Assembly (NCBI RefSeq): GCF_037975245.1
Contig: NC_092576.1
Location: 45,686,111 to 45,750,110, forward strand
From: Apostichopus japonicus
Lineage: Eukaryota > Echinodermata > Holothuroidea > Aspidochirotida > Stichopodidae
Reading direction: 5' to 3'
DNA: 64,000 nt
Shown here: positions 25,777-63,673 of the stretch, piece after piece
Layout: each line of letters begins with the position of its first letter
Numbering within the stretch: position 1 is the stretch's first letter
Made by a program: the position numbers and the translations under genes
The notes under the pieces: generated by a model
The model's database searches: none
Seen by the model: only the letters and a program-made list of their open reading frames with translations
Told to the model about the DNA's origin: nothing

Positions 25777-25807
<31 letters not shown>

Positions 25808-43800: not shown

Positions 43801-46041
43801 CTCACCTTGAATGTTACGTAACTTCGTAAGAGGAGAAAGAGAACCCACGAGAAGAGACAGAGGTAACAAACAATCAATGAATCTGTAAAATAAAATGTGA
43901 TTTGTGGGTGTTGAATACGTTATATGATTGAGTTGTTTTGATGTTATCCACCATTTATAAAATAATTATAGTGTAAAGTTAGTGATGCATCAGTCATTAA
44001 GTATTGTTGCGTTCCGAGCTTCTCTGCATATGTATTTATTGAGTGTGCTCGCCTGTTCTCAGAGAGAACGAATCAGTTTTTGCTTTAATGTCTCATTCTG
44101 GTGTTCACACTACACAATAGTAAAATACTACACATGAAGTACAATCCCTTTAACTTTTTACTAAACAACGACAACAACACTATCACGTTACAGTATGTAT
44201 ACATCATTCTTCTAGCTAAAAGTTACCGTTCATTCAAGAACACAGTTCCACAGTTTGCTGGTTTGTAAGTAATCGATCATTAATTAACGTTAATAAATAA
44301 CATAACAGTAGTGGTATGCGACTACTTACGTCAATTTCCGCAGCCGTTGGCATTTTTGTGAAAAAGACAATAATCCTATGACTTGGTCCTGGGTAAATTC
44401 TTTTCCAATGTTCGTTTTGATCTGTAGTTCCTCTAAGGTGGACGATACAGGTACAAGTTTTCCATTTTCCAGAGTTATGTTATGTTGGTCTGCAGAGCTA
44501 AATGATGCTAGTCCGAGACTGGTAAACTTAATATAAGGAAAACACGTTTTAGAAATTATTAGACAATCGTGCGCAGTCAAGAGCAATATATGTTCATATC
44601 GATGACTGTGACTTTTTACATATCAGACAGACAAGATCGTCCATGCAAGCTTAATTGATGATGTACCAAATCACAGAACTTTAAACCGACGGAAAATATG
44701 GAAAAGTTAATGTGTGTAATATTGTTTTCGATTATACGAAAGCATATAGGAATCAAGCCCATCCGTTGCTCGGAGTCGTATAATCACTACCAACCGTTAT
44801 TATTAAAATAATGTACTCCAATTACAAACATTTCTCGTTGCATCAGTACTGAGAAAACAACAACTTAGAAATAGTAGCTTAAGTTGTCGAACTATAGACT
44901 TGGTCTAGCACAAGCAGCTTAATGTTTTAAATAATCTTATTCTACATAAGCAGGTAACGCATTTGTTTCTAGCTAAATATTTCAATTTACTCACGTCAGA
45001 ACTGAGAGATATCTTTGAACCGAGATCCAGTTTGTCAAACTTAAGATCTGTTGGAAATACGTAGATAAAAATAAATGATAACAAAGTGTTAACGTTTCTG
45101 TTAGCATCAAGTATTAAACACTTGATGGTTTATCGGTTACTTCATCAACTCATATTGTCATATTAGTTCATTGTTATGGATGTTTCAAGTGTATCGTTAG
45201 ATTGTTGGTACGGCAATTGTACATTGTATACGTTTTCAAAAATGGAAGGTGATGATTGATATGAATATGTTTTATACTGTATATACATGAAATGTTCTTG
45301 AGAATCATATACTAACCTTCTGGTTCTTGTATAGACTGATCATCACCTGTACACCGTTTCCCTGTATGACGCTCGAACATTGTTTGCACCCTTTCATGTA
45401 TCCCATTAAGATTACACGCTTTCAAAGCACGTAGAAGAGTCGTGATATCTGTTTCTGTGATTTCCCCTCTCTCCTCCAAATATTGAACCATACGGTAATT
45501 ACGACCATCCTTATTTTGCAGCAAATCGATTTTTGCGGGTGGATAATTAAGGAAGGTTGCAAGGTGCAAAATATTTTCTCCAGTTAGTATATCAACTAAT
45601 TTAGCTTTAAAGCTACCAAAACCTGGTAAAATAAACAATAACACGAAGAATTCACTTTTCACATATTCCGGATCAGGTGTAAGGGGCCTTATGACTACTT
45701 CATGAACAATACAATCTACATGTATTAAATTTAAGTAAAATACATATTAATTCACGAATGAGAAGAGAATGGTATAACTAACCATATGTAGGCCAAAAAT
45801 GAAGAAACAAACGGACCTGTGCAGATTGTATACCAGTCTAAGAGACTGTGTATAGTCTAGATGTCGTTTGAATGCATATCAGTTAATCCGAAAGAACAAT
45901 CTCTCCCCCCCCCCCCCCCCATTGATGTTACTTTGCTGATGTGTAATTTCCAATTGCTATTCAATATATTGATAACCGTACCTGTTGAATTCTTCTTCTT
46001 TGCTGTTTCTACCACATGCTTGAAATTGGTAGCCATCGTAC
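18003..46041 (-). CDS. Death-effector-like/LRR modular gene lacking a NACHT exon
   Basis: A minus-strand gene is inferred from exons with matching splice phases. It starts with a linker exon (45982-46041), then a death-fold exon (45317-45622), then leucine-rich exons. These are 44995-45047, 44330-44526, 43806-43882, 43508-43596, 40980-41099, 37237-37445, 36372-36448, 35773-35828, 35033-35152, 33514-33722, 26360-26436 and 20940-21010, with a candidate last exon at 18205. The LRR part is a repeated four-exon cassette: A 120 nt phase 0-0, B 197-209 nt phase 0-2, C 77 nt phase 2-1, D 53-89 nt phase 1-0. The same B and C exons follow NACHT in the plus-strand gene at 62.6-63.7 kb, so this is an NLR relative. 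No Walker A motif occurs on this strand within the gene. A start at ATG 46034-46036 has a good context (A at -3, G at +4); upstream exons to 51.3 kb may also belong. Confidence 0.82.
18510..18540. repeat. Poly-G tract
   Basis: A run of about 16 G within a gggaggggg context. Similar runs of 10-17 G or C occur near 1691, 3930, 6770, 15317, 27755, 28045, 28662, 29752, 30763, 31342, 34204, 40254, 40651 and 45904. Confidence 0.8.
19250..20520. repeat. About 48-bp minisatellite array
   Basis: There are about 25 copies of a unit of the form ttgttgactacatcccttta + atccactcagtgtatgttta + gtaatatt. Units vary by substitutions and short deletions (gtaatatt or gtactatt). Some adjacent pairs are near-identical, for example around 20130-20200 and 20260-20340. 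The array lies beyond the D exon, in the last intron of the LRR gene. Confidence 0.92.
20940..21010 (-). CDS. LRR-cassette D exon (third cassette)
   Basis: A 71-nt exon, phase 1 to 0, between acceptor tcttacag and donor gtaagt. It includes YYRLDLDSGIWE, like RLLDLSTGKWTK in the D exon at 35773 and HLDSSRGKWVS at 43508. The shared pattern is L-D-x-x-x-G-x-W. Confidence 0.75.
22410..25882. mobile_element. 3.5-kb TIR element with internal 400-bp tandem units
   Basis: It is bounded by the same perfect 13-bp inverted repeat as the element at 144-954 (22410-22422 and 25870-25882). The interior is a tandem array in which the word cgaaggtca recurs at 23101, 23501, 23901 and 24301, exactly 400 bp apart. 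The units starting at about 23482 and 23882 look identical over long stretches, and flanking units are more diverged. The right end holds a CA/CATA microsatellite (25776-25838). No transposase frame is visible. It sits in the intron between the exons at 26360 and 21010. Confidence 0.88.
25776..25838. repeat. (CA)n/(CATA)n microsatellite
   Basis: Runs of ac, then catacata, then ac again, sub-terminal in the TIR element; the shorter copy has the same feature at about 898-910. Confidence 0.95.
26360..26436 (-). CDS. LRR-cassette C exon (third cassette)
   Basis: A 77-nt exon, phase 2 to 1, acceptor gattatag and donor gtaaag. It encodes LRDCVLPSSIPVG and LSTLKSRAVN, matching LDNCKLPSSINPD of the C exon at 36372 and FSGCILPD at 63600 on the plus strand. 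Confidence 0.85.
26837..26961 (-). CDS. Candidate alternative B-type exon
   Basis: Acceptor ttccttcag opens at 26961 and donor gtgggt follows 26837, giving 125 nt with phase 0 to 2, the same class as B exons. It starts IELENMSGYISLDMNTV and lies directly upstream of the C exon at 26360. It cannot follow the B exon at 33514 in frame, so it would have to replace it. Sequence similarity to other B exons is weak and it is shorter, so it may be a decayed copy. Confidence 0.3.
27540..28290. repeat. Diverged duplicated block, copy 2
   Basis: This block is collinear with 13640-14330: gtagagagtccctaagattt, ctactgctcata, ctctacacggtccaccc and tgttaagcaaataccgataa occur in the same order. G-runs and C-runs (27753-27765, 28043-28057) lie within it. 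Confidence 0.6.
28300..29860. other. Intronic stretch, no exon seen
   Basis: Lies inside the presumed intron between exons 33514 and 26360. It has several G/C homopolymer runs (28553, 28662, 29753) that create proline/glycine-rich spurious frames. No LRR-type exon was recognised. Confidence 0.4.
29870..30081 (+). mobile_element. LINE reverse-transcriptase C-terminal relic with CTA tail
   Basis: On the plus strand a frame reads KPKGRPETTLLGRIKSQFKD, then EEAINLAQDRDTWRKL. This is the typical C-terminal tail of non-LTR retrotransposon ORF2 (GRP...T.L..I...L, then A.DR..WR). It is followed by a ctactactactactacta tail (30062-30081). Only the extreme 3' end is present, as expected for a 5'-truncated insertion. 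Confidence 0.7.
30419..30660. mobile_element. Degraded copy of the 40.2-kb MITE family
   Basis: It starts cataggcgtagaagccc, then a G-run, gtaataacttgcccgaaaaa, and the GC palindrome gcgcgctccgcgcgc. It ends near a ttttgggcaagtcattaca block. These match the element at 40229-40688 in order. The right terminal repeat is lost. Confidence 0.7.
30661..33500. other. Intronic stretch, G-rich in parts
   Basis: No exon recognised. 32260-32340 and 32515-32680 are strongly G-rich on the plus strand (ggagggagggtgcattgggg, tggggtgggggagggtggtg) with a TG microsatellite (32610-32651), so G-quadruplex formation is plausible. An A-run lies near 30684 and a C-run at 31342-31358. Confidence 0.45.
33514..33722 (-). 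CDS. LRR-cassette B exon (second full cassette)
   Basis: A 209-nt exon, phase 0 to 2, acceptor tttctgcag and donor gtaagt. It encodes IPIYWVTLGWSFCKIDEDG, then SLPIITSIERMSIYTEEGR and EVSGILNYVQHSQRFKEL. The layout of a strand, a helix and a closing L-x-x-L matches leucine-rich repeats of NLR proteins. It has exactly the same length as the B exons at 37237 and, on the other gene, 62621. Confidence 0.9.
34080..34380. repeat. G-rich degenerate minisatellite
   Basis: Irregular repeats of ggtgtgttatggtaagg, aggggtgtg and tggtagggg, with a G13 run near 34204. Intronic. Confidence 0.5.
35033..35152 (-). CDS. LRR-cassette A exon (second)
   Basis: Exactly 120 nt, phase 0 to 0, donor gtaagt. It encodes PDDIQTITVMCSDG, then DSSKSVQRSVIELLVEAS. 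It matches the A exon at 40980 and the last 40 codons of the NACHT exon of the plus-strand gene ([17 protein letters not shown]). Confidence 0.88.
35773..35828 (-). CDS. LRR-cassette D exon (second)
   Basis: A 56-nt exon, phase 1 to 0, acceptor ttttacag and donor gtttgt. It encodes VISSSEARLLDLSTGKWTK, with the D-exon pattern L-D-x-x-x-G-x-W. Confidence 0.82.
36372..36448 (-). CDS. LRR-cassette C exon (second)
   Basis: A 77-nt exon, phase 2 to 1, acceptor ctttgaag and donor gtacga. It encodes LDNCKLPSSINPDIIPEE and LRNIK. The L-x-x-C-x-L-P signature is shared by all C exons. Confidence 0.88.
36480..37236. other. Intron
   Basis: No further exon recognised. Pyrimidine-rich stretches with short C-runs (36926, 37175). 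Confidence 0.4.
37237..37445 (-). CDS. LRR-cassette B exon (first full cassette)
   Basis: A 209-nt exon, phase 0 to 2, donor gtgagg. It encodes IPISHLYLEWSFSGFDGKD, SLSNLSSVEKISINEG and EEVIGLINYGIKSPIFKEL. It is closely related to the exon at 33514 in length, phase and pattern. Confidence 0.9.
37447..40140. other. Intron of the LRR gene
   Basis: 2.7 kb rich in aggcct and taggcc words (for example tattaggcctaggcctatac near 38820). No coding exon is supported on either strand. Confidence 0.4.
40229..40688. mobile_element. 460-bp MITE with 10-bp target-site duplication
   Basis: Ends are ataggcgtag (40229-40238) and its exact reverse complement ctacgcctat (40679-40688). They are flanked by a perfect direct repeat gagattgtgt (40219-40228 and 40689-40698). 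The two halves are inverted copies of one unit, each with a G-run or C-run, a tcgggca block and the GC palindrome cgcgcgctccgcgcgc. The arms at 40477-40520 and 40569-40612 pair in a long hairpin. The 9-11 bp duplication length is typical of Mutator-like transposons. No transposase is present. Confidence 0.9.
40980..41099 (-). CDS. LRR-cassette A exon (first)
   Basis: Exactly 120 nt, phase 0 to 0, acceptor tttccag and donor gtaagt. It encodes TKDQSSLRLLCSSIVNL and DSKQLQMSTILLLQIASSHN. The LLCS and DSK..STLLLIA elements align with the C-terminal 40 codons of the NACHT exon at 60818-62346, so the exon looks like a NACHT-exon tail without the ATPase. Confidence 0.88.
41101..43507. other. Intron of the LRR gene with GC-rich minisatellite
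   Basis: 42300-42475 is a GC-rich degenerate repeat of cctgcgctgcccgagacctg-type words (period about 20-25 bp), unlike its AT-rich surroundings. It leaves long but low-complexity frames on both strands. No exon was recognised elsewhere in the interval. Confidence 0.5.
43508..43596 (-). CDS. LRR-cassette D exon (first)
   Basis: An 89-nt exon, phase 1 to 0, acceptor ctttccag and donor gtaagt. It encodes SWTPTEHGFHLDSSRGKWVS and NSKEATTLE. Longest of the D exons. Confidence 0.82.
43806..43882 (-). CDS. LRR-cassette C exon (first)
   Basis: A 77-nt exon, phase 2 to 1, acceptor ttttacag and donor gtgaga. It encodes FIDCLLPLSLLVGSLSPL and TKLRNIQ. Confidence 0.86.
44330..44526 (-). CDS. LRR-cassette B exon (N-terminal)
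   Basis: A 197-nt exon, phase 0 to 2, acceptor tatattaag and donor gtaagt. It encodes FTSLGLASFSSADQHN, SSTLEELQIKTNIGKEF and QVIGLLSFSQKCQRLRKL. It is four codons shorter than the 209-nt B exons. Confidence 0.88.
44995..45047 (-). CDS. D-type exon following the death-fold exon
   Basis: A 53-nt exon, phase 1 to 0, acceptor tccaacag and donor gtgagt. It encodes DLKFDKLDLGSKISLSSD. Position and phase match D exons. It leads straight into a B exon with no A exon between. Confidence 0.75.
45317..45622 (-). CDS. Death-effector-like domain exon
   Basis: A 306-nt exon (about 102 residues, phase 1 to 1), acceptor ttttaccag and donor gttagt. It encodes KLVDILTGENILHLATFL, then YRMVQYLEERGEITETDI, LLRALKACNLNGIHERVQ and TMFERHTG. 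The order of helices and the L-E-x-R-G-x-[IL] motif between helices match death effector domains of the FADD/caspase-8 family. The canonical RxDL triad reads CNLN here, so homotypic assembly may differ. DED proteins assemble filaments in cytosolic death and NF-kB signalling. Homology is judged by eye; another death-fold subtype is possible. Confidence 0.7.
45900..45925. repeat. Poly-C tract
   Basis: A run of about 16 C between the death-fold exon and the preceding linker exon. Confidence 0.85.
45982..46041 (-). CDS. Lysine-rich linker exon or start exon of the DED-like gene
   Basis: A 60-nt exon, phase 1 to 1, acceptor caattttcag and donor gtacgg. It encodes TMATNFKHVVETAKKKNST. Its ATG at 46034-46036 has A at -3 and G at +4, so it could be the true translation start of a cytosolic DED-LRR protein. 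Otherwise it is a linker following upstream Ig exons. Confidence 0.65.
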
Positions 46042-46868
46042 CTGAAAATTGTAATAATGTAGCGTTTATATTTACTGCTAATACGATAAATAGCAGTAAA
46101 ATTAGTCAAATATTACAGGAAATGCATTTGATCAATATGGTTCCTTCAGGCTTATGAGATTGAGGGATGAAACTGGTTTTAAAAACTTAAAATTCAGCAC
46201 ATTATGTTGCTGCTGCGTTGTCTAACAATTACAGAAGGATAACGAGTTTGTAATGATCCATCGCTTTTCAATGAACTCTCACAATGAATCACAAATGACG
46301 CTAATGTATTATTTGTGCACGAGAAAGCAGTATTGTATATCACAATATTGCAGCACATTTCACTCCAGCTTACTCTGCTCTGCTGAAATCGACCCGACCG
46401 CCGAGACATATGTTTCTATAGTTGATCAACATGTATATTCTTGAATCTGACAAATTCACACTTAATAACGGTGATCCAGCATAAACAACTGAGTTTCATT
46501 AATATTCAGTGTCTGTTTAGGCAACATGCAAATGTATATTGGATGATTTGATGATGGATTGATTACATTTGTTAAACAGCTTTAGTCGGCAGACGTCCTA
46601 CACCGCCAATTACCAGTTATACAAACGCACATGTTGGCCATGATGTTTATAGAAGCTTTGCCAAAATACAACTGTCAGTTCCAAATGAGTTGTCGTGTAT
46701 TCTTGGGCACCGTCGACCAACCTAACATAGCACAGCCTGAGTTACACCCAATTACTGCATGTATATAGCTAGACATTACAACGTTATATATACTTCACAG
46801 TGACGGAGATTCGCTGTTATTCCCTAAGTACATTGGTGTATTGGTAGTATATACAATCAGGAACCTAC

Positions 46869-46901
46869 CTTTACTGGTTGTCTGGGCAGGCTCTGATGTA
46901 T
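46869..46901 (-). CDS. Candidate 33-nt linker exon
   Basis: Acceptor acaatttag, donor gtaggt, phase 1 to 1, encoding TSEPAQTTSK. It is Ser/Thr/Pro-rich like an extracellular stalk. It would join the Ig exon at 50966 to the exon at 46041. It is short, so chance is possible. Confidence 0.45.
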
Positions 46902-47135
46902 CTAAATTGTTGTAGTAACTTCAAAGTGGTGTTATGTTTCTAGACACGACTACAGTCATTCCATGATTCGTCAAATAAAATGGCGTTTAGTTCTTCCATT
47001 CATCTCTCTCAATGCACTGATCCTGTAACAGTATCAAAGTTCATATTTACATTAACCAAATATTACTTATCAGTTGGATATTTATGTGTTTAGGCTTACA
47101 CTGAAATATTTTAAGGTTATCTTGGCATCCTTATA

Positions 47136-47390
47136 AATATTTGTGAGGATTTGGGATTTAAATTACGCCAATTCGTCATGCCAAGAACAAAGAATGATCA
47201 TGTTCGGGTATATCCATAAACCTATACTTATAGGATACTTATAACAAAAATGGTTGTTACAACAACTACTGTTCAAGTCCCACAACCGAGCATCAGTAAT
47301 TACTACTTCTGTGTTCGTAGCGCGGTAACATGTGTTACAGGTAGAAACAGTAGTTACTGTACTAGCTATGATTATCTGGTGATTATGTTA
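47136..47390. mobile_element. Dispersed inverted-repeat element, copy A
   Basis: Contains cccacaaccgagcatcagta, a aacatgtgttacagg block and gtagttactgtactagc. It also has a ttaaattacgccaattc block followed by gggtatatcca. The same blocks occur in reverse order and complemented at 58868-59118. Confidence 0.7.
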
Positions 47391-47404
47391 AAGCTCGCGG
47401 TTCC

Positions 47405-47875
47405 ATAAACTAAAATACTTGAACTACAGTACTTAAGCTACGGTATTTAAACAACGGTACTTAAACTACGGTATTTACACTACGTTATCTGAACTACGGT
47501 ACTTAAAGCACGGTACTTAAACAACGGTACTTAAACTACGGTATTTAAACTACGGTATCTAAACTACGGTATTTAAACTACGGTATCTAAACTACGGTAC
47601 TTAAACTACGATACTTAAACAACGGTATTTAAACTACGGTATCTAAACTACGGTACTTAAACTACGGTACTTAAACTGCGGTACAAAAATATCGGGACAA
47701 AAACATCGGTACTTAAATTACGGTATTTACACTACGTTACTTAAATTACGGTTCTTAAACTACGATACTTAAACAACGGTACTTAAACAACGGTACATAA
47801 ATATCGGTACTTAAAGTACGATATTAAAAGTAAGATAATCAACCTACAGTACTTAAAACTGCTGTACTTAAACGA
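47405..47875. repeat. About 15-bp minisatellite (ttaaactacggtact)
   Basis: Over 25 short units of the form cggtacttaaactac, with variants cggtatctaaactac, cggtatttaaac and cgatacttaaac. It is direct, contiguous and without spacers, so it is not a CRISPR. It lies upstream of the DED-like gene. Confidence 0.93.
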
Positions 47876-47879
47876 AAAA

Positions 47880-50800
47880 TTTTCCTTATTCAATCAACTG
47901 GATTGAAAATGTAAATTACTTCATGAGCACATGATATGCTTTGTTTGATGTATATAACATTAATGCGATAAGTTTTGTTCTAAGCATCCATATCAATATA
48001 TATTGGCGATATTCTGAGTTACCGGGAAAAGAACCATTTAAAAAAAAAAAAAAAACTTTTCCTCTTCAAGAATTGTTTGATCTTCTAAGCATAAGAACAC
48101 TCAACTTTTAGAATAACACCAAGGGCAACTGAATTATTTCCTTAAACCTTCGCTAAGGAAATGTTTATAAAGGCTACCATGCGTCTTGTATTCGTACCAA
48201 TTCATTCTTTTTTGTATCCAGGAAAAGTATTTTTGAGCCTGAGAATATTACTTAAAGGCGTATGAGTAACATATGAGTACTTTTATGTAACTCATATTAT
48301 TCAGGACACGCCTTCTGATTGGTGGCTAACAAATAAACGCCCAGTGTAACGATCACCTTTAATTAGAAGTGACCAATCAAAATGTGACATTACTGATATG
48401 AATGGCGTACTTCAGATTTGTAAACCTGACAAGTCCTGTAAGCAATCATAACATCGTCGCTTCTTTATTCTTGATCTACCAACCATAACCACAAAACATA
48501 ATGTTGAGTTTAATAGAGCCCTCTCATAGAGTGTATTAAATACTGATCTGTGTTCCTCTATTTTACGTCGCTATTATAGAAAAGCAAAAAAAAATTAAAC
48601 ATAAACATAAACACGTCCTATACCATATGGAGTTTACTATATTTTCCTTCATAACCAACATGGTATTACCTATTGTATGTTTCTGTTTATTGTATGTTTC
48701 TGTTTATCTGATATTGTTGCGTACAAGTGACTTTACAGGTATTCAAATGCGGTGAGAGGAGGGAAAATTCAACTTATCCACCGAATGTCTAGCAGCTTGA
48801 ACTTTGTTGAATTGACCACATGCGAATAAAGGGTTTTATAAAGGAAGGTGACTGTAATGGAACCATAGCTGTCTCCTTCAATTAAGGGGGTATAGGGGTT
48901 TTATGCAAGAAAACAGTTAACTTTTAAACTTCAATTGGTGTATTCTAATTCATATTTCGATATTAATGTTTGGTCTATATTAGTAGAATAAACCCCAAGA
49001 TTGTGCAATACAAAACACCATTATTTCCTTCGCAATTGACCTGAAACTTAAAGGAGACCCATTTTCGAATGAAGTTTTTTATAAACGGGTGGAGCTGCCG
49101 TGGGTTCATTGAAGCTGAATATCATGTTTTGGATTTAGGAATACCATACAAAACAAATGCAAGCTGAGACGTAAAATTGTGTATTTTGAGGCATATTTAG
49201 ACTAAAAATAATCTATAATCAGCAGCTATGTTCACGACGCTTAAACGATCACATATGTGGGCTTATGGCTTATAACTTACCAGTCGGGTGGCTTCCAATT
49301 CAACAATTTAACTCAAATTTTGAGTCTGAAAAATTTAGGAGGTCATTTCAGATGGGAAAATCGTAGATTGCTCTTTGATGGAAAACCTACCTTACTATGA
49401 CCCTGCCGAGTATCGAACCCAGAGCCTACCAATTGCTAAGCATCATTGCTTCAAATGCCACCGCTGTTTTCCACTTGGCCACAACACCTATAGAGTAGGT
49501 ATACATACTATTAGTCCTAAACTAAAGGTTGGCTTATAATGATTTATGTGATATATGTCCATTTTTTACCCGGCTGAATCCAAACTTGAAGTTCATGGGA
49601 GGGGATCATGCACCGTATTTTTGCGGACGCGTTGTCTATCTGAACTGCTCATTGTAGCATTATATGCTTTATACTTTTTACATTATATTTGTGTAGTGTA
49701 TCTTTGGAGTTACGCAATCATCGAAAAGAAACATCATCTGTGCAGATTATTGTTTTCTAAGGTTGTATTTTCTTGTGTTTAAATATTACTAAAGACGTTA
49801 AACGCTGGGAGTTATTTGCATTTAGGAAAGCTTAAATTTCAGGAAGTTGTTTTTTGGATGATATCTTCTTTTATTTCTAGATGACAACACATAAATTGAA
49901 GAATGTGCATCATGGATTAAATAGCAGTAATCGCCGACAGAAAGAAAGAAAACAGAAATACTGGAACTGATGGTTAAACGAAACTAATTCGTCGCCATGG
50001 TGACGACTGTTAAAGACGAGCAGTGGATTTGTTGTTGAAACACAGAACAATATCCATATACTATGTTTTTATATAAGCAAGAAAAGAACAGAATATTGGA
50101 AAGATGAAATTTTAACAATTCGCAGATCGATTTACAAGCATAAAACCTTGGAAAATCCCGAATTACTTTGAAAGGATTTATGATCGATGCAATCTTATCT
50201 AATATTTTTTTGAAATGTTCATTCAAAACGTATTTGTAACAAATCAACGTCAATAGATCGTCTTCGTTTCTTGTAGATGATTTAGAGATTAACTTAATGT
50301 GGAACTTGTATTTGTAATTTCCGTCACAGAGTACCGTACAACGCGCATTATGTACATAAGCATTATATATGAAGTTAAATCGGAATGTTCATGTCAGGAA
50401 ATTGTTTTTAATTACGTGCATATATCTTCCGTATATAGTCTACAAATCTAAGCGTTCAACAGATAATAAAGAAAACATTAAACACATTTTACCCATCCAG
50501 CAATGCAATAATTACAGTACATGGAATATTTAACCTAGCAGAATAAATAAACAGTATTAGAAAGTAGTACGACCATTCCCAAGAATAACTTTTTTTTTTT
50601 TTCTGACATTTGTTCTATAGTTATTTTTCGAATTTGATGTTTCTTTTCGAACAAAAACGTTTTTTTTATGAAGCACTCGCTTAGTAAAGATAACATATAC
50701 ATGACTACAGGATACATCTTGTCTTTCTTTATATAGTTGCTAAAGTTTCTTAAAAAAATGTGTTTTTTAGTCATATGACACTAAAAGGTCTATCATAAAA

Positions 50801-50960
50801 ACAGTATGTTCTATATATAAATCACATAAATGCGAATATTATTTATAGATTTGCTTCTTGTGTTGGGTCATATGACTAAAACTAACAAACTCAAGATATT
50901 AAGAAGAATTACGCTTTAATATATCTAATAGTTTTAATATTTAACATTGTGCATACTTTA
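47880..50960. other. Stretch between the Ig exon and the linker exons
   Basis: No transmembrane or Ig exon could be found on the minus strand, which leaves open whether the Ig exon belongs to the DED-like/LRR gene. It contains a SINE head (49398-49488) and A/T runs. Confidence 0.45.
49398..49488 (-). mobile_element. tRNA-like SINE head
   Basis: The minus strand has an A box tggccaagtgg (49471-49481) and a B box ggttcgatactc (49408-49419). Spacing is 50-60 bp and there is no cloverleaf with a usable anticodon stem. It is read as a SINE relic and not a functional tRNA. Confidence 0.55.
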
Positions 50961-50965
50961 CTAAC

Positions 50966-51284
50966 CTTGTACGTGTAAAGTGTAATTCTTTGTAACTACA
51001 GAACCACACATACACTGATATGTTCCTTCGTGTGGTAATCTTACTGGGTTGATTATCAAAGAATTGTCATCGGAGAGAGAAATGCTTCCATTGAATTCCT
51101 TAAACACAGTGATCTTGTTGAAGAAAAGTATTTTGTCTTCAAACTTCCAGTTATGGTGTTCACCGGGCTCGCAACAGTTTTCAAAGCAGATAAATTTGGA
51201 CAGTTCCGAGACGTAATGATATTCATCGCAGACAACTTGAAAAATTGCAGTAAGTAAATAAACGAAAGATACATTTAATAACAT
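50966..51284 (-). CDS. Signal peptide plus single Ig domain exon
   Basis: The exon starts with ATG at 51282-51284 and encodes a signal peptide (MLLNVSFVYLLTAIFQVVC). An Ig domain of about 85 residues follows: Cys in FICFE, Trp in HNWKF, then SLIINPVRLPHEGTYQCM with the D/E-x-x-x-Y-x-C signature and closing strand NYTLHVQ. It ends in phase 1 at donor gttagt, so more exons follow. The SLxIxxVRLxHExxYxC block closely matches the third Ig of the plus-strand receptor, so the two share Ig modules. It is either the 5' exon of the DED-like/LRR gene (next compatible exons 46901, 46041, 45622, all phase 1) or a separate secreted or membrane Ig gene. Confidence 0.8.
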
Positions 51285-51299
51285 TTTGAGAGCATTTCA

Positions 51300-51680
51300 T
51301 GGAATTGACACTGAAAACAAAATATACACTGAAAATTCTAATATTTCATTATGACATATTTTGAAGTTCGGAAAAAAGATATACAACTGTCCTTGAGTCA
51401 AGCGCTCTCTGAAATAAAAACAAATCCTACGGAGTCCTTAACAAGCCGTTAGGTGTATGATTTGTTTATTGATATTCAAACGTAACATTGAGCAGGTTAT
51501 TTGAATTCCATTGCGGTATAATTGCAATGTTAGTGGAGCCTATTGCAGCCCAGTGCACATTAGTACATACCAGTCTTAAGATGGGACTGAGTAGAGTGTT
51601 ATGTGATACATTGCAGAGTAGTACATAAGACTACGTGGAAAGTACAATGAGTGTTGTGTAGTATACATATCCGCGCAGGA
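51300..51680. promoter_or_regulatory. Presumed 5' flank of the minus-strand Ig exon
   Basis: Between the Ig start and the minisatellite. No TATA box or other element is clear enough to place; the label rests on position only. Confidence 0.25.
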
Positions 51681-51689
51681 CTTTGCTGT

Positions 51690-52030
51690 GGTAGGACGCT
51701 TGGGCTAGGACTGTGGTGGGAAGGAAAATGGTGGGTAGGAATTTTGGGTAGGACTTTGGTGTGACAGGACTGTGTGGTAGGACTTTAGTGGGGTAGGACT
51801 GCGGTGGGTAGTACTGTTGTGGGGTAGGACTGTGGCGGGGTAGGACTGTGGTGGGTTAGGACTGCGGTGGGTAGGTCTGTTTTGGGGTAGGACTGGTGCG
51901 GTAGGACTGTAGTGGGGTAGGACTGTGGTAGGGTAGGACTGTGGTGGGTAGAGCTGCGGTGGGTAGGGCTGCGGTGGGTAGGGCTGCCGTGGGTAGGTCT
52001 GTTGTGAGGTAGGACTGTGTTGGAGAATCA
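51690..52030. repeat. G-rich minisatellite (gtaggactgtggtggg)
   Basis: About 16 units of ggtaggactgtggtggg type, 18-21 bp long. The complement gives an open proline/tyrosine-rich frame (YPPQ repeats), which is a by-product of the repeat. It lies between the two divergent receptor genes. Confidence 0.93.
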
Positions 52031-52039
52031 CTGGTGCGG

Positions 52040-53170
52040 TACTCTTGTGGGCGGCTCAGTCCGTTTGTAGCCTACTTTTTTCAATCAAATGGCGGTCAGT
52101 AGTACTGGTTAACCATAAACTAAGTGTGGTTGTTGTACTAACATTGTGTACAAGTATGAGACAAACTGAGAGCCTTAATATTAGTTCATAGTAAATGTGA
52201 CCTAAACGTCTGTCGCCTAGAATTTAATTGTCTCTTACATAATCGAGTACTTTATCATATTAAACAAGATCTATAAACATTTCATATGAAATATATGTGT
52301 TCTTTCCCTTGATAGTTTGTTATATGGACTATGATGGTAGAAGACCAAAAACCGCATGGCTTTAACAGACACAAGATATGAATAAAAAAAAGTTCTGCTT
52401 AAGCTGTTTCACAGTGAGGTAAGGAAATACTTTAGTCTAAAATGTCTTCATTGTAAAAGTAAAATAGAAAGTATTAAGAATCTATTGTGACCACACAAAA
52501 GAGTTGTACGATGCATCGATTACTCATACAGAAATAGGTTTCGAAGTTGTGTGAATATACTTGTTATTTGCATATAAATATGTTAACCGCACAAAGGAAA
52601 AATTATCTCTTTGAAACTACTAATTTCAGTTTCAGATCATTATTACTCGAGTGGATGAAGAAAATGAAATAGAAAGAAATCGTGCCCATATATGGCTGCA
52701 ATCATCGTGTTAATCTTATCACAAATAAAATCAAGTATCAATTAACAATATACACGCTCTGGCCTAATTTCAAACACAGGAAAGTAATTTGATTGCTTGA
52801 GTTCATAGCTTTAACTTCTGTGTCATATTTTGTAATATAGCAATTGCTAAGCACCACCAGTGATGATCCGATTGTCAAAGTTGAGTGTTTATTGCTTGTT
52901 TTGTCCAAAAAAAAAATTACATTTAATCTCAGCCTTTTAATTTTAAACTGTGATTATGTTCCTAAAACAATGAATGCTCAACATAAATGAGACAGACCCT
53001 GATAGCAACAACAATTAACAAAATTGGGAATGATAAGGATATTCTACTCGGTCAATACTTACCATTCTCGCTGTTTCTGTATGTGTCACGTTGCTTCGTA
53101 TATGCATAGTTTTGGTATGAAATGTGCCTTGTAATATATACGTTAAATGTAGGAGACACAATAGCTTATT
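52040..53170. other. Intergenic stretch between the divergent genes
   Basis: AT-rich with no supported exon on either strand. Confidence 0.4.
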
Positions 53171-53199
53171 TATAATGTAATACACACTGTGGTGTGGTT

Positions 53200-53530: not shown

Positions 53531-53539
53531 TGTCATATT

Positions 53540-55070: not shown

Positions 55071-55099
55071 AGTTGTAGTTTTGTCCGAAATATAGCGAG

Positions 55100-55160
55100 A
55101 TGTTGAACGGAGCAGTTTTTAAGGCATTTATTCTTATCCTCATATTGAACTATTTCTCCG
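55100..55160 (+). CDS. Receptor exon 1: signal peptide
   Basis: ATG at 55100-55102, [20 protein letters not shown], ending in phase 1 at gtaagt. A charged residue followed by a hydrophobic stretch and short polar end fits a cleavable signal peptide. Confidence 0.85.
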
Positions 55161-58100
55161 GTAAGTTGACCTCCAGCAGTATCTTATATTAAGAACTACG
55201 TTATGTTCTAAATTGTTCAAGAATGGATTATGTAATGTTCTTGTTATATTACAGACAATGCATTGAGCTACTACAATGTGCATGGTATAGGCCACGTAAT
55301 AATTACGCTATATTTCATGTAATGCCCATGATGTATGCTAGTTAATGTACTTGATAAATGTGTTGTTATGCTCTCGGTACACCGTATGTATTATATATGT
55401 TATATACCATTTATTGTCCGTCATGTATTATAATAAATGTACACTGCATTGTTTGTTATATTCATGGTATGTCTTATGTAATATGTTTATTATATTTCAT
55501 GTAATGTCCCTGATGTATGTAAGTTAATATACCTGGTAGATGTGTTGTTATGCTCATGGAATACCGCATGTAACACGTGTGTTATATTTCATTTAATGTC
55601 ACTGGTGAATGTCATTTAATATACATGATAGAGGGGTTGTTATGTTTATGACATACCGTGTATAATATGCCTGTTTCATCCCATGTACTGTCCCTGATAT
55701 TTGTCAGTTAATGTGCATGGTAGATGTGTTGTTATATCATGATACACCGTATGTCATGCAATATGTATACTATGCTATGCGCTCTACCAGTAATACCACG
55801 CTGTAGATCTGGTAAAGTCCATGCGATATTGGGGGTATGCGCCATGTACTATACCTGATATACGTTTCTTAATGTCGGTAGTCTAGTTCATATAATTCCT
55901 GTTGAATACAGCATACATGGTAGATGATATATCAAGTAATGTGCACGTATAGTGCTATATAATCTACCAGGTATTATCATGTTCATGATATGATTTATGT
56001 AACGTTCAGATTATAAATCATGTAATGTGTATAGCACATATAACGTATCCGGTATTAGTCATAAGATTTGCCTTACATATCCCATATAAAGTATTTGATG
56101 GAGTCGTCGTATGTATTAAGTAAGATATCGTGTAAGTTACTTAAGGTGTGGTTTTCACTGTGTTATAAGCAGAATAAAGGACAGTGGTCCTCTGTGATAT
56201 CATGCCAATAGGTCTCTAGGTTCTGTACAAGTATATTGTGTACGTAAAATGTCACCCGTGCATATAATGGCATACATCCGTTATGTCTTATAACAATATG
56301 TGTATAATATGCTGTAACCCTCACCCGAACCAATGCCTCTGGTTTGTGAAATGGATAAACATTTAATGTGATGCATGTAACTTCTCCAACGTGGTACAAT
56401 ATGTTTCAGTTTAATGGATTAAAAGGCTCACGTTGTTCCCTCTCCAATGAAGCACACGTAGATCACATGCCTAACTGACATATCTCTCTTGATTATATTT
56501 CTCTGTTCTCAGTTTTATCTGAAGAGAAATGCCCATCTCCACAATACCTTGAGTTTGGAAAAGTAGGAGTCGTTTTCTGTGAATTTGAGACCGCAATTTA
56601 CAGCATCCACTGGTATGATACAGATGACGTCACTGCTTCGAAACCAACTATCGAAGTAGATAGCGATGGCACCATAGGTGGACCTGGTTTTACATCCGGG
56701 GAATACAACATTAACCCTGATGGATATCTGGTTGTCAATAACGTTTCTGTTCATCACGAAACAAAGTTTACAGTTACTAAATTCAAGTCTACTTCAGAAT
56801 TACCAATTGTACTTGTAATAGAGGTTAAAGTCATAGGTAAGCATTTCAGTAAGTGGCTATTGCTTCTCGGCCTTTTGGCTAAGATCATGTGTAGTATATG
56901 TTCCCTTTCGAGGGGAATGGTGATGCACACACGACGATGATCACACAGTCACAGTCTCGATTCAAGGGGACTGGGATTTTGAGCGGATCAGTCGGTTTGT
57001 TGTTAGGTATTTCGTGCCCAGGTTCTTTCCGGGGTGATTTTTCGTAAATAATATCAATTTTGAAATTTTATGAACAGTTCAAGTGGTTATTAAAATTACT
57101 GATTTCCTGTTTTTGTCATTACACAACATTTAAAAAATGTATCTGCTAGCATACTGTTCATCAGTAAAGATAATTCAGTCATTGTTCTAGTATTGATGAT
57201 GCGTTCTTTAACAGTAAATATTGTTATTTTTTTGTTTCTATACAATGTACAGTAATACCGGTTTTAGCTTATCCTGTTATTGACCAGTGTTCAACACAAG
57301 AGGAAACATGTTTCACTCGTCTTGGCTGGAATGAACAACTTACATGTAGAATAGCCGACGCCAGACCGCCAGTGAATTTATCATGGCATATGTTGACCAA
57401 GGCAGGACAGACATCTATCCCGTTTACACGTTTCATAACCAATGGCACGATAACCCAGTCATCATATGTTGAAGTAGCCGATGTGTTTGAAAAGTCACCG
57501 AGTGTGGTTTTGCTTGTTTGTAAAGCAGAAACCGACGCACCGTTGTTGAATCGTCCTGAGTCGTTTGTATTGGCTCAGAATCAAAATATCGATCTTATTG
57601 ACATTATCGTTTCTGACGTCATCGTTGAAAAGGGACAGTGTGTAAATCTTACTTGTTCCAATGCTGATATTGATATACTTGTCTGGGAGAAACGTGATTT
57701 AGAGAATAACTTTGAGACAATCGCATATTACATTAACTTTGAAACCTTGATTCATAAATCCCTAGATGAAAGTGTTGAAATTAGTAACCAAGGTTCTTTG
57801 GTCATACCCGACGTTCGTTTGGAACATGAAAGTTATTACAGATGCCTATACAACAACGGAACTGGAGATGTAGCTGCATTTAAAATAGCTGTATATGGTA
57901 AGAAAGCTGCCTTTAAAATGTATGTACATGGTTAGATTGCTGTATTAAAAATGCATGTCGATGTTAAGATAGCTGCATTAAATACATATCTATGGTAAAA
58001 TAGCTGCATTAAAATACATGTCTAAGGTATAATAGCTGCATTTAATATGCATGTATATGGTACGATAGCTTAGTATCAAAGTGTTCTTGCTGTGTCGAGG

Positions 58101-60453
58101 ATGATTGCTGAACGCTGTGTCCTAATGATATCAAACAAATATACAAACACGTGTATTACTGTAGCCTTTCATGTACTTTCTCAACAGTTTACTGATATAA
58201 TGTAATAATGTATGCAATGTGATGATCATCAGATATATTACAAATTCTTTAAGGAGTATACTACTTAGCATATTTAACTGAACAATAGAATGTGTCATTA
58301 TATATAATTTCGTGGTATGATAAGATCCATTTATTTTAATATTTCTGATCTTCAATGCAGTTAGTCCGTCGCCAGCTTATCCAGTAGTTGACGGGTGTCC
58401 ATCCGATCGGTACTGCACGTTAAATGTCGAACGGCAAGGAAATTTAACGTGTACAGTTAAAGGCATACGACCGGCCATTGAACTTCAATGGATGGTGCAT
58501 TATGAAGATTCTATTGATCAAATATCATTTCACAATCAACAAAGTAAAATATTAACTAATGACGGGACTTCAGATGTTATCCACACAACAGAGTACAAAG
58601 TTCGAGATACTGCCAGTGACAGAGTAACAGTGGAGTGTTACAGTATTGGTGCACGAAAAGATTCGTTGGCTTTGAGCACCACCATCGATCTACTGATTGC
58701 TCGTGGTAATAATATATAACATTTACTCAATATGAAATGTGTATTGAGATCCAGCAAACTTGTATAAGAATCAATTGTGTTCATTACAATATACGTACGT
58801 GTTTACCCTTCACTGCTACCCGACTCCGCCCTGGGCCTACCCAACCACGTATGACCAATCACCCGATACTCATGGCTCGTACAGTAACTACTGTTCATGT
58901 CCTGTAACACATGTTACGAACACAAAGTAGTAATTACTAGTGTACTGTTGTGGGACTTGAACGATAGTTGCTGTACCAGCCATGGAGTCCAAGTTCGTTA
59001 ATACGCGAAAATAAGGTCTCAACTTGGCTTTTGAATGCTATAAGTAGGCCTAGATGGATATACCCAAACATGACCTTTCTTCGTTCTCGGCATGAAAAAT
59101 TGGCGTAATTTAAAGGAGAGATGTCAACTGGAATCAAGCGGTATCGTACCTACTTTAATTCAAATACATAGCTAGTACAGTAACTACTGGTCCCACAACC
59201 GTGCATCAGTATTTTTAACACGATGAAATATGTTACATGTGTTACCAGTAGTTTTTGTACCAGCTACTGAGTATCAACCGGATCAATCAAACTGTCTGTC
59301 GTATACCAACCAGTGTAATTAAAGAAACATTCCCAGTTAATGTGATCTTTGTTATTTGTGTCTATCATCAAGTGAACAGTTATATACATTTTCAGCTTTT
59401 ATATTGAAGCAGTGTTCCAGTAATCACGCCTATTGTTTCTCCCTTTCATAGATGACGTCATACCAACGGCTAAAAATCAAAAAGAGACTGGATTCCCAAT
59501 AATAATCATCGTCATAGTACTTGTTGTTAGTTTTATTCTACTTGTAGCTGGGGTGATATTCGTCATAATAAGTGAGTAACTACACATGTTATTGCAATGA
59601 AAACACAAAGTCTATAAATGAGATAAAACGACTGTATGTACTTTCATTGTATATCTCAGTTTTTATTCATGAATTGTCGCAACATTGCACCACAATTACA
59701 GTTTGACGATGATTTCTAGTTGTGCGTATCACATCAACATAGCCTCACATGTATTAATTTACAAGATAAATTATCTAAGAATATATTTTGGCACGTTTGT
59801 TTGATCTAGTTGTCATCCTTGTGTTTTAATTTAACGAATCAATGTTTATTCATTGTTTAAATCACGTCACTAGGATATGATAATACTTTAATTTCATGTA
59901 ATATCTTCTTATTTATTAGAACTCCGGAGAAGACCCAAACCAGACACTTTGAGCAATGAAGAGGTAATACCAGATAATTATATTATCAAATTGATAAACA
60001 GTTGTCATAATGAATGTATTCTTTCTCGTAGAAGTTTGTTCGTTTAAGGTTGTAACAAACTGATAAAGTAAAAAGTTCAACCAAAACATGATCCAATTGT
60101 ATTAAAGTTATGATATTGATGTTGGCAATTGTACAGTAAAATACAATAGCAATATAAAGAATGGCAGCTGTTCATAGAGAAAGCATTAAAGTGTACCGTG
60201 TACGAGGAAAAACAAGCAGTAAAGTTATATTGCTATCGGTAAGTTAGCGTCGTGTGATAATGTAGCAAAAGCCACTCTTGTCAGATATATCAACTCTAAA
60301 GTTGTCAGACTGCAACTGTATTCTGCTTCATTGTTTTCTACCTTTGACTTTCTTTAGAATTTTGACCTGAAAGAAACATTACTAAACCAACCTGAAGGTA
60401 TGTTAATATATGTATGTATGTATATATGTTTATATATATATATATATACATAC

Positions 60454-60511
<58 letters not shown>

Positions 60512-63500
60512 TTGTTTCGTCAAGTTCATAGTTTTGATATTTCTTTTATAAAAACACATTTAATAAATCATGAAGAAGTAGATTCAAATTAAATGTAAAC
60601 CACATATATTTATGAGCCTACTTTTGTGATTTTTTCAATCCAAAATATGTTTATTATGATATATAATTTGGTGTTTAACTTTGTAAATAAGTTGAGTTTA
60701 ATGATATCAAATGGACAAAGACATTATATGAATTATGTTAACAAGTTTATTCTGTTCTCTTAGTAGTTTATGGATAAAAACAGTATATCTAAATTTTCGC
60801 TTTGCTTTACACGCCAGTCGCAAAAAATAAAACCCTTTTGGTAGAACAACTAAAAGGAACGTATGCCAACTTTTACAACGCTATAAAACCAGTTCCTTAC
60901 CAGCGGGAAAAGACGTACTGTGTACAATCTGTATTTGTAGAGGGTGGCATGTCTTGCCTAGAAGACAAAGCACTGGGAGACAAAGAGACATGGGAACCGA
61001 TACAATCTTACCAGGATATCTGGACTGATCCACGACTAAGATCGAAGAGAAGGATCATTGAGGGAGGTCCCGGTTACGGAAAGTCCACACTTTTCTTACA
61101 AATGGCTCATGATTGGTGTTCTAATGAAGGAAAGTCAGCTTTGAAAAATGTTCAAATACTCATTCTATTGAAACTTCGACAGTTAGCAGGCATCAGCTCG
61201 ATATATGAAGCTATCAGGATATTTCTCTTACCCAGGAACTCTAAACTTAAAAATCAAGACATTGAATCGATCTTGGACCAGTCCTCCTCTGTTGTAATGC
61301 TGTTCGACGGCTTTGACGAATATCCGGACTATGAAAATACAACAGATATTTTAGACATTATCCAGAGCAAAATGTATCCAAATTTTGACGTTATTCTGAC
61401 GACACGATTATCAGATCTTCCAAAGGACTTGGCCGCGGAAACAAAACGACTACGTCTCACAGGCTTTGGTAGTGAGGCTCAACATACTTACTTGAAGAAG
61501 GCAGTGACTAAAGACGATGTAGCTGCTGGTGAAAGGATTCAAAATGTTCTTTATGAAAACCCCATCTTCAGAGACCTCTGCCAAATTCCTCTCTTTTTTG
61601 TCATGTATGCCCATCTCAGTCAGAGGAGTAAGGAGTTACAGACTTGCACATCGGCTACAAGTTTCTTTCGTTATATGGTGTCATCCTTACATCAACATCT
61701 TAAGAGGAAGTTCAAAGATGAAAACGTGGAACAGGTCGATTTGCTAATAGAGAGAGAACATAAATCATTGGATAAGATTGCTTTTGAAAGCATCAGCGGA
61801 ACAGAACGAAAAACTTGTTGGAAGAGGAGTGACATCGCCGATTGCTTGGGAGAATCTTTGCTTGTTCAGTGTCTACGTGTTGGCACACTACAGGAAGAAG
61901 AGTTGACAGAATTCCACGACAGCCCTGGTATCAGAGCTCATGAACATGTAGAATACATAACCAATGTTACATTTTATCACGAGCTATTCTGCGAGTGGTA
62001 CGCAGCACATCACTTAGCTGATGCCGTAGAGAAGTTACACAGTAGCAGTGATGAAGGAGTTAGTGACGTATTGGATATTGTAGATCCATCCAAGCATCAG
62101 TATGTGTTTCGATTTGCTTGCGGGATCAACCTTACTGCTGCTGACGTAATCATAAGATATTTGAGCGGACTGATTGGAAGAAGTGAGATTGTTATTATGT
62201 GCATTCTTGAAAGAATAGGCTCTGTGGACAAGATTCTTGATGTCATGGAAAATCTGTGCTCCAATCCTATCCAAATCAAAGCGGATAACTCAAAAATACT
62301 TAACAGATCAACCCTACAGCTGTTGGAAATTGCTGACTTAAAAGAGGTAAATAAATCATCGAATTAAAACAAAATGGTAGCATTGTGTAGCTGAGAAACT
62401 TAACGATGTAATTAGCTACAGGAAAGGCACATTTGTGCTGTTTTTGTCTTTATGTTTCTCTTTCTTGAATAAGAATTACTGCCAACAGAGTTGAAAACGA
62501 TTTTATTGATTCTGGTTTTAGAAGTAGATCTGTTTAACTTTACACCATCTCGGGTCATGGTAGATATCATTACATGTGTGGAAACATCGTGGTAACTATT
62601 TTGTTGTTTCATCCCTATAGGTTAGCGTTTCAAGCTTGATTGTCAGTGAATGTTTCCACGCTGTCGAAGAGTCCCAGAAAGCGATTCTATTGACGTTTGA
62701 TCTTCAATTACCGATTCTTTCTACACTTAGAGAGCTTATAATTGATCAAAGTGGGAAAGAATTTCAGGAGGAGGAATTGAACGACGTGTTTACATACATT
62801 GCTAACTGTATACAATTAAAAATATTGAAGTAAGAGAATGTGTTTCTATGCTTATTGCTATACATCAATCAATCGATCATTCAAAAAACATTTATATATC
62901 GTTAATATCAACAACACTTGTTCAAAATGCACTACCAGACATATTAATAACACAACCGCAACTTATTTATCCATAGACACATTATTGAAACAGCAGCGAC
63001 TATGCTTGTTAAATGAAAGAGTTAATGACACTGGTCTAAGACAATCTACATACATAAAGCCAAAAATGTAAAACCTGGCTCATGAGTACAATTGGACGAG
63101 GTTAAGGAACGTCATATTTCTGGACTCACTCCACGATTAACAAGTATTGCTTAGTAATAAACTGTTTAGTGTCTGGCAGGTAGACAGATGCAGAACGAGA
63201 AATAAAGGACGTGCGTTCAGAAATGAACTGAATCAATGTCAGTAAACTTAACCTGCATAACTATGCGTAGTTACAGCACGTACCTGAAAATCGTGAATCA
63301 GAGAGTAGATATACTAAGTGAACTAACGAGCATAAGTTTAGTGAAGTTAACTAACTGTAGACAGTTATCTTTAAGAATGACAGTCATTTCTTGTAATACA
63401 TTAATTTCATTCATTAGGTTAAATCTGCATCTCTATCTTTGCTTTCTACTTAAAATAATATCATGTTATTGATGAGAGTATAGCAGTATCCACTGTCAGA

Positions 63501-63673
63501 AACAAGTACATGCCTTAAAATCAACAGTATATGTGATGTTGTTGGAGAAACTTCGCGTTTGGTATTTGATGTCGTTATTTTTTGTTTTGTTATTCATAGA
63601 TTTTCCGGATGCATTTTGCCTGACGTCATTAGGTCGACGTATTTGACAATTTTCTCTACAAGCGGTGCAACAG
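55100..63673 (+). CDS. Ig-TM-NACHT-LRR receptor (partial, continues past the right edge)
   Basis: Ten exons join in consistent phase to about 1130 residues: 55100-55160, 56513-56836, 57253-57897, 58361-58705, 59452-59571, 59920-59963, 60358-60397, 60818-62346, 62621-62829 and 63600-63673. Domains in order are a signal peptide (1-20), four Ig-like domains (about 21-458), a transmembrane helix (about 473-498) and a short cytoplasmic linker. Then come a NACHT ATPase (Walker [10 protein letters not shown] at about 609-617, Walker B LFDGFDE at about 688-694) and leucine-rich exons. NACHT proteins are usually soluble cytosolic sensors; here the ATPase is tethered under the membrane with a multi-Ig ectodomain. 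Since the last exon ends in phase 1 with a good donor, more LRR exons are expected beyond 64000. It is divergent to the minus-strand Ig and DED-like/LRR exons and shares Ig, B and C exon modules with them. Confidence 0.92.
55260..56100. repeat. About 91-bp degenerate tandem repeat in receptor intron 1
   Basis: The word tgttgttatg recurs at about 55361, 55544, 55635 and 55727, multiples of 91-92 bp, each with catgtaatgtccctgatgta-like and gttaatatacctggtagatg-like text. It decays after about 55800. Confidence 0.75.
56513..56836 (+). CDS. Receptor exon 2: first Ig-like domain, second cysteine missing
   Basis: A 324-nt exon, phase 1 to 1, acceptor ctgttctcag, donor gtaagc. It shows VGVVFCEFE and IHWYD (strand B Cys, strand C Trp). 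The strand F region reads [20 protein letters not shown] where D-x-x-x-Y-x-C is expected. The second disulfide cysteine is replaced by Thr. Confidence 0.85.
56859..56905 (+). ncRNA. U2 snRNA-like 5' segment in receptor intron 2
   Basis: The sequence attgcttctcggccttttgg, continuing ctaagatcatgtgtagtata then tgttc, matches the first 45 nt of metazoan U2 snRNA with about three mismatches. It includes the GUAGUA branch-site-pairing region. Downstream the U2 Sm site and later stem-loops are absent. Instead there is a small hairpin (ttccctttcgaggggaa) and unrelated, possibly structured sequence to about 57045. It is on the sense strand of the receptor, 22 nt after the exon 2 donor. A 3'-truncated U2 pseudogene or a chimeric small RNA gene are the options. 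Confidence 0.7.
57253..57897 (+). CDS. Receptor exon 3: second and third Ig domains
   Basis: A 645-nt exon, phase 1 to 1, acceptor caatgtacag, donor gtaaga. Ig 2 has [20 protein letters not shown] and [10 protein letters not shown]. Ig 3 has [19 protein letters not shown] and [19 protein letters not shown]. Two complete Ig folds are encoded in one exon. Ig 3 is the closest match to the Ig in the minus-strand exon at 50966-51284. Confidence 0.92.
58361..58705 (+). CDS. Receptor exon 4: fourth Ig domain
   Basis: A 345-nt exon, phase 1 to 1, acceptor tcaatgcag, donor gtaata. It has [20 protein letters not shown] and VTVECYSIG. It starts [12 protein letters not shown], parallel to [10 protein letters not shown] of Ig 2, so the Ig 2 and Ig 4 modules are duplicates, each with an extra Cys pair before strand B. 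Confidence 0.92.
58868..59280. mobile_element. Dispersed inverted-repeat element, copy B and a solo TIR unit
   Basis: 58868-59118 is the reverse complement of much of 47136-47390. Within it 58873-58983 has inverted ends ggctcgtacagtaactac and tagttgctgtaccagcc. A second unit at 59169-59272 has ends agctagtacagtaactactg and ccagtagtttttgtaccagct. These are MITE-like, with no coding capacity, in receptor intron 4. Confidence 0.65.
59452..59571 (+). CDS. Receptor exon 5: transmembrane helix
   Basis: A 120-nt exon, phase 1 to 1, acceptor ctttcatag, donor gtgagt. A polar stalk ([14 protein letters not shown]) precedes about 26 hydrophobic residues ([20 protein letters not shown] onwards), and the next exon starts with KLRRRPK, a positive stop-transfer. 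Topology: N terminus outside, NACHT inside. Confidence 0.93.
59920..59963 (+). CDS. Receptor exon 6: cytoplasmic juxtamembrane
   Basis: A 44-nt exon, phase 1 to 0, acceptor tttattag, donor gtaata. It encodes [15 protein letters not shown]. Basic residues next to the helix support an inside C terminus. Confidence 0.8.
60358..60397 (+). CDS. Receptor exon 7: cytoplasmic linker
   Basis: A 40-nt exon, phase 0 to 1, acceptor ttctttag, donor gtatgt. It encodes [13 protein letters not shown]. Together with exon 6 it leaves only about 28 residues between membrane and NACHT exon, too few for a death-fold domain. Confidence 0.78.
60405..60515. repeat. (TA)n/(TATG)n microsatellite in receptor intron 7
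   Basis: Alternating tatg and long ta runs. It gives spurious YIYIYI frames on both strands. Confidence 0.97.
60818..62346 (+). CDS. Receptor exon 8: NACHT domain
   Basis: One 1529-nt exon, phase 1 to 0, acceptor acacgccag, donor gtaaat. It holds the whole ATPase and helical modules. In order: [12 protein letters not shown]; Walker A in [16 protein letters not shown]; Walker B in [13 protein letters not shown]; sensor 1 region LTTRLSDLP; a proline motif [10 protein letters not shown]; and a helical motif [18 protein letters not shown], akin to FxHxxFQEFxAA of NLRs. The nucleotide-binding residues look intact, so ATP-driven oligomerisation is expected. The last 40 codons (through [19 protein letters not shown]) match the separate 120-nt A exons of the minus-strand gene. 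Confidence 0.95.
62621..62829 (+). CDS. Receptor exon 9: LRR B exon
   Basis: A 209-nt exon, phase 0 to 2, acceptor ccctatag, donor gtaaga. It encodes [39 protein letters not shown] and [11 protein letters not shown]. Length and phase are identical to the B exons at 37237-37445 and 33514-33722 on the opposite strand. Confidence 0.9.
63600..63673 (+). CDS. Receptor exon 10: LRR C exon
   Basis: A 74-nt exon, phase 2 to 1, acceptor attcatag, donor gtactt. It encodes [20 protein letters not shown], with the L/F-x-x-C-x-L-P signature of C exons, one codon shorter than the 77-nt form. A D exon is expected next, at or beyond the right edge. Confidence 0.82.

Follow-up and report, generated by a model that had tools for sequence, protein, structure and literature searches.

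Ig-NACHT genes of the sea cucumber Apostichopus japonicus recurrently lie head to head with Ig-exon genes, and a NACHT-less family with a probable death fold lies apart from them

Does a sea cucumber receptor gene with a NACHT domain have a dedicated partner on the opposite strand and, if so, which of its neighbors is it? Conserved pairs of receptor genes in head-to-head orientation are characteristic of plant nucleotide-binding leucine-rich repeat receptors (NLRs). The question is raised by a stretch of 64,000 nucleotides of A. japonicus DNA (C16:45686111-45750110; NC_092576.1), hereafter the window. Here, a plus-strand gene with immunoglobulin (Ig), transmembrane (TM) and NACHT exons starts at 55100 and faces minus-strand exons encoding an Ig domain (at 51284) and, further away, a putative death fold with leucine-rich repeat (LRR)-like modules. 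An earlier note on this DNA read the minus-strand exons as one gene and proposed that the two genes act as a pair, with NACHT and death fold split between them. In our best explanation, to which we give a probability of about 60%, three genes meet in the window: the plus Ig-NACHT gene, its Ig-exon partner gene, and a death-fold gene.

The A. japonicus genome (GCF_037975245.1; 671,581,487 bases, 35 contigs) was searched with exons of the window, and the resulting match lists are lower bounds throughout. Its NACHT repertoire is large, with at least 106 scored matches among 487 candidates in a profile search, all over the Pfam cut-off. That list was left out of the pairing counts, which took 84 NACHT matches from a 566-candidate search, the best 80 of 126 matches to the minus-strand Ig exon, the best 87 of 146 matches to the double-Ig exon of the plus gene, 39/39 third-Ig matches, and the best 16 of 141 death-fold matches. 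A double-Ig exon lies within 8 kb of 32 of the 80 Ig-exon matches, in head-to-head orientation in 32/32 and in other orientations in 0, at a median distance of 3.9 kb; randomising positions and strands gave a mean of 1.4 and a maximum of 5 in 1000 runs. At 12 kb there are 35 head-to-head, 2 tail-to-tail and 2 same-strand pairs. Approached from the other side, 32 of the 84 NACHT matches have an upstream double-Ig exon on the same strand, and a divergent Ig exon lies close upstream in 18 of these 32 detected Ig-NACHT genes (random control, about 1). Within 15 kb of NACHT, Ig exons were divergent and upstream in 18 cases, on the same strand in 0, and opposite and downstream in 1. The head-to-head pairing of Ig and Ig-NACHT genes is conserved across loci of this genome, and the claim that the Ig exon at 51284 diverges from the plus gene is confirmed at the locus and repeated elsewhere. 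That this exon is a mere fragment or relic was also considered, and was dropped once the genome-wide recurrence had been found.

The partner is readable beyond its first exon at one locus, L064, where an Ig exon and the NACHT gene at 45.82 Mb of C16 are arranged head to head. It is there a predicted three-Ig, one-TM protein with Ig, Ig, Ig and TM exons, all of phase 1, and a Ser/Thr-rich stalk in the TM exon; the second and third Ig exons score under the Pfam cut-offs, and no nucleotide-binding domain was seen across 6 kb. Relatives of the third Ig exon accompany 20/80 divergent Ig exons, always downstream on the same strand and never upstream or opposite (control mean, 0.5). The TM exon itself has two relatives elsewhere (E 0.0125); in both cases a divergent Ig exon lies 5.4 kb upstream. 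In the window, only the first exon of the partner is recognisable (50964..51284, minus strand; signal-like start and Ig; at least 126 matches in its own genome), and about 6 kb of adjoining sequence yielded no further partner exon. Because no exon beyond the first is seen, the gene may be broken here, or its other exons may have diverged. A tandem array with a Pro/Ser/Thr/Tyr-coding repeat occupies 51705-52055, upstream of this Ig exon.

The plus-strand partner is better defined. The earlier note had described an Ig-TM-NACHT gene starting at 55100, and profile matches bear this out (Pfam V-set 1.2e-6 and NACHT 1.3e-14; top Protein Data Bank (PDB) match NLRC4, 7.3e-9). Its order is signal peptide, Ig exons, TM, NACHT and LRR-like tail, and a 10-exon model stays open for 1130 codons, as far as its final exon within the window. 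Exon 1 carries the start codon and signal peptide (55100..55160), followed by an Ig-like exon without a Pfam match (56513..56836, residues 21-128), a double-Ig exon with an Ig-like module and the V-type Ig that scores as V-set (57253..57897, the Ig at residues 242-343; at least 146 matches in its own genome), and a third Ig exon with a weak donor (58361..58705; 26% to the preceding exon, E 2e-5 / 3e-6). A scan with stricter splice cut-offs missed the TM exon and returned none; with the looser cut-offs used instead, 59452..59571 is the sole candidate in 58700-60800 (KD 3.53). The juxtamembrane part has two small exons, 59920-59963 and 60358-60397, which are tentative and were placed by phase and splice scores. 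The NACHT exon (60818..62346; at least 84 scored paralogues among 566 candidates) has the module termed B as its tail (62224-62346); in the death-fold gene, B modules are exons of their own. The LRR-like C module (62621..62829; held-out rank 1, E 2.5e-6) and D module (63600..63673; alone it fails the held-out test, at rank 147) follow, and the gene continues past the window. Of the 84 NACHT exons closest to this one, 35 lie on C7 and C22 without an upstream double-Ig exon and represent another architecture.

Because its domain positions match those of AjNLRC4 (A. japonicus, MN607598), the plus gene belongs to a known kind of receptor. AjNLRC4 is reported to have an Ig-like domain at 31-132, Ig at 251-353, TM at 483-503 and NACHT at 600-757 (PMC8699970); in the plus gene the counterparts fall at 27-128, 242-343, about 473-498, and from about 604. 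The likeness is one of domain order and residue spacing. By this comparison the protein would place Ig outside, one TM, NACHT inside, and an LRR-like tail. The second TM of AjNLRC4 (776-795) was not seen in the plus gene. AjNLRC4 is reported without LRR, whereas the plus gene carries the C and D modules after NACHT. A C module, in which Pfam finds no LRR, also lies no more than 1.5 kb after the NACHT exon of 10/19 paralogues and is a new detail in an otherwise known receptor kind; an LRR-like tail in this place would question the view that such receptors have no repeats.

On the minus strand, the death-fold-like and LRR-like exons assigned to 46.0-18.2 kb do form a gene: 15 exons remain in phase from the ATG at 46036 to a stop at 18188 (577 codons). 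They comprise a start exon (46041-45982, coding 45982..46036), a death-fold exon resembling death domains and death effector domains (DEDs) (45317..45622; at least 141 matches in its own genome), the E0 module (44995..45047), and three cassettes. Cassette 1 (43508..44526) holds C1 (44526-44330), D1 (43882-43806) and E1 (43596-43508); cassette 2 (35773..41099) holds B1 (41099-40980), C2 (37445-37237), D2 (36448-36372) and E2 (35828-35773); and cassette 3 (20940..35152) holds B2 (35152-35033), C3 (33722-33514), D3 (26436-26360) and E3 (21010-20940). A short last exon (18188..18205) is proposed tentatively. Gaps of 269 and 468 nt separate death fold, E0 and C1. Competing splice choices include better donors at 35073 (in B2) and 45347 (in the death-fold exon), and the C1 acceptor is weak (-0.9). 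The last intron contains a tandem array of a ~46-bp unit (19200-20510).

The 15 closest paralogues (L030-L044; death fold 61-89% identical) repeat the start of this exon series, and with them the gene forms a NACHT-less family of at least 16 members. C1 lies 738-844 nt after the death fold in 15/15, E0 is present in 14/15 (in two weakly, E=0.3 and E=4), and the start exon in 12/15, with the ATG kept in 13/13 aligned copies, the window's own gene counted. At four more distant loci (L045-L048; death fold 49% identical), the start exon, E0 and C1 are all absent within 1.5 kb, and these loci represent a second class of death-fold gene. It had been proposed that a single minus-strand receptor gene runs from the Ig exon at 51284 through the death fold into the LRR-like modules. 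Phases are compatible with such a gene, but no TM exon was found on the minus strand at 51000-45500 (a still looser scan gave one poor candidate). Moreover, 12/15 death-fold paralogues have a start exon of their own, and the nearest Ig exon of the 51284 kind to any of the 15 is 62 kb away. We regard a single gene as very unlikely.

Whether the minus exon is a death fold had to be judged from distant similarity, and we consider that it probably is one. A profile of 14 diverse paralogues gave 22 PDB matches, 15 of them to death-fold proteins (best E 0.041, Pelle), and of 35 Foldseek matches to a weak structural model (predicted local distance difference test score, pLDDT, of 62), none significant, 31 were death-fold. 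Pfam Death scored 17.3 bits, short of the curated cut-off of 22.6, and among 17 relatives Death appeared in 4 and DED in 4, all below the cut-offs. The top PDB profile match of the exon was THR6 (0.005 and 0.032), which is partial, and the VIA rows for the exon include bromodomains and designed proteins. DUF2095 was found in 12/17 members (best 7.3e-5, above Death); it was set aside as an archaeal profile that covers about half of the exon.

Could the death-fold/LRR protein nevertheless be the dedicated partner of the Ig-NACHT receptor? In the window the two genes are adjacent and divergent, their domains are complementary, and B and C modules are shared; the NWD2/HET-S system indicates that such pairs can exist (PMC4344463). 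The complementarity itself stands. In the plus gene, the TM-NACHT interval gives no indication of a death-fold exon and has no open stretch of more than 61 codons, and a death-fold exon was found on the same strand at 0/20 NACHT loci (the plus gene and 19 paralogues, 1.5 kb on each side). Likewise, the death-fold gene lacks the NACHT domain that defines an NLR, as do 15/15 paralogues; tblastn with the plus NACHT exon against the minus strand below 55 kb gave just two matches (E 0.40 and 0.61), both confined to the final ~35 residues of the exon.

The genome survey speaks against the partnership. None of the 15 close death-fold paralogues (0/15) lies near an Ig-NACHT gene: the distance to the closest of the 84 NACHT matches is 91-589 kb for 14, the contig of the remaining one has no such match, and double-Ig exons come no closer than 40 kb. 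In the window, death fold and NACHT are 15.5 kb apart, and the two genes start 9,064 bases from each other, the Ig exon lying in between. More Ig-NACHT genes lie to the north on C16 (45.78, 45.82 and 45.84 Mb) and minus-strand death-fold genes to the south (45.51, 45.40 and 45.32 Mb), so the adjacency reflects the meeting of two arrays. In addition, AjNLRC4 is reported to reach caspase-1 through its Ig domains (PMC11932488). Since the paralogues keep the C1 layout and lie far from Ig-NACHT genes, we consider a dedicated death-fold/NACHT partnership extremely improbable. The head-to-head pair of the earlier note is therefore real and recurrent, with the wrong gene named as the partner, and a division of labor in which one partner has NACHT and the other the death fold lacks conserved pairing in this genome. 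The death-fold gene belongs to a family separate from that of the head-to-head partner.

Homologous Ig, B and C modules on the two strands had also been noted, and for B and C the homology holds. In held-out profile tests against 2,554-2,882 pieces, B copies ranked first in 3/3 and C copies in 4/4, whereas D (ranks 32, 2, 1 and 147; 3/4 fail) and E (737, 1, 6 and 23) mostly failed. D exons are alike far above shuffles (96 vs -13; 59 usable of 150), and E modules barely exceed them (136 vs 125; 23 usable of 300). The Ig homology came down to a 33-residue match (39%, E 1e-4). Because C3 has at least 150 scored matches of 625 candidates genome-wide, sharing of C does not mark out the two genes as specially linked. 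The LRR label was not supported by Pfam, which finds no LRR, and LRR was absent from the 50 matches listed, of 137, to a weak C-module model; the repeats look LRR-like by eye, with no profile behind it.

Recurrence of the arrangement suggests that the Ig-TM and Ig-NACHT genes are probably made together, from a shared upstream region, and act as partners at the cell surface. The common upstream region and constant orientation point to joint expression, and co-expressed surface partners are our best guess. The NACHT chain would oligomerise and signal, and the Ig-TM chain would serve as co-receptor or regulator. A wider version is tentative, and we place it short of an even chance: a multigene set of two-chain surface receptors, in which one shared upstream region at each locus serves an Ig-NACHT and an Ig-TM chain, the two chains recognise jointly, and signalling passes via the NACHT chain. 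The death-fold product would be a cytosolic adaptor-like protein of its separate family of at least 16 members. That family probably came to share its LRR-like modules by duplication combined with exon shuffling; phase 1-1 is common to the Ig, TM and death-fold exons.

Several observations weigh against this reading. Its support is the DNA of one genome; a double-Ig exon is missing within 8 kb of 48/80 Ig-exon matches, 14/32 Ig-NACHT genes lack a divergent Ig exon at the chosen cut-off, and only 5/18 NACHT-paired partners have a third-Ig relative. Five other loci were read for the partner, and at four of them (L065-L068) about 6 kb of sequence held no further partner exon. For the third gene, death-fold scores stay under the Pfam cut-offs while DUF2095 scores better. 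Above all, the two genes may recur because they were duplicated as one block, without any joint function and with the partner drifting, and we treat this as a serious rival, although a less likely one. Tandem clusters on C16, the missing divergent Ig exons, and the unrecognised partner exons in the window and at L065-L068 would all fit block duplication. It sits less well with the 32/32 close cases in the same orientation, with a first Ig exon that retains its cysteines and donor phase, and with an order kept among copies just 22-45% identical in the Ig exon, which argues that the head-to-head order is old.

Elsewhere in the window, self-tblastx was dominated by repeats, and a ~400-bp unit occurs in three similar copies at 23492-24525 (plus strand). 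An exon of ATG101 (autophagy-related protein 101; 9628-10110, minus strand; Pfam 6.6e-8, above the cut-off) is a possible synteny anchor.

Among holothuroid receptors, AjNLRC4 is reported to bind microbes through Ig and to work via actin (PMC8699970), and its Ig domains to bind caspase-1 (PMC11932488); the passages of these two reports at hand make no mention of a head-to-head partner. The recurrent Ig / Ig-NACHT order makes a paired-receptor model testable in cells where AjNLRC4 is already studied. AjNLR-new (PIK48001.1; PMC13133943) likewise has Ig, TM and NACHT within one protein, but its Ig is reported between two TMs and its NACHT outside. In Chiridota heheva, also a holothuroid, some NLRs are reported with an Ig V-set and 24/53 with death or DED domains; those carry NACHT, in contrast to the death-fold family of the window (PMC8913654). 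Coral NACHT loci are described in pairs or triplets through tandem duplication, with no statement on head-to-head order in the part of the report at hand (PMC4083563), and among the papers listed in literature searches, none showed an animal head-to-head NACHT pair by title or abstract.

Other parallels lie outside animals. In Podospora, NWD2/HET-S is a divergent NACHT gene beside a NACHT-less partner, reported as conserved in 46/55 genomes, and is to that extent like the pairs described here; HET-S, however, is a pore-forming executor that shares an amyloid motif, whereas the partner here is a predicted Ig surface protein (PMC4344463). In Sordariales, 13 of 225 two-NLR clusters are reported as head-to-head (PMC12258605). 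Plant head-to-head NLRs are likewise recurrent receptor genes in this orientation and are reported to divide sensing and signalling; both plant partners are NLRs, whereas one chain here is, as far as it was read, Ig-TM without NACHT (PMC12258605). If the two-chain model is true, these receptors would be the equivalent, at the cell surface of an animal, of the head-to-head NLR pairs of plants.

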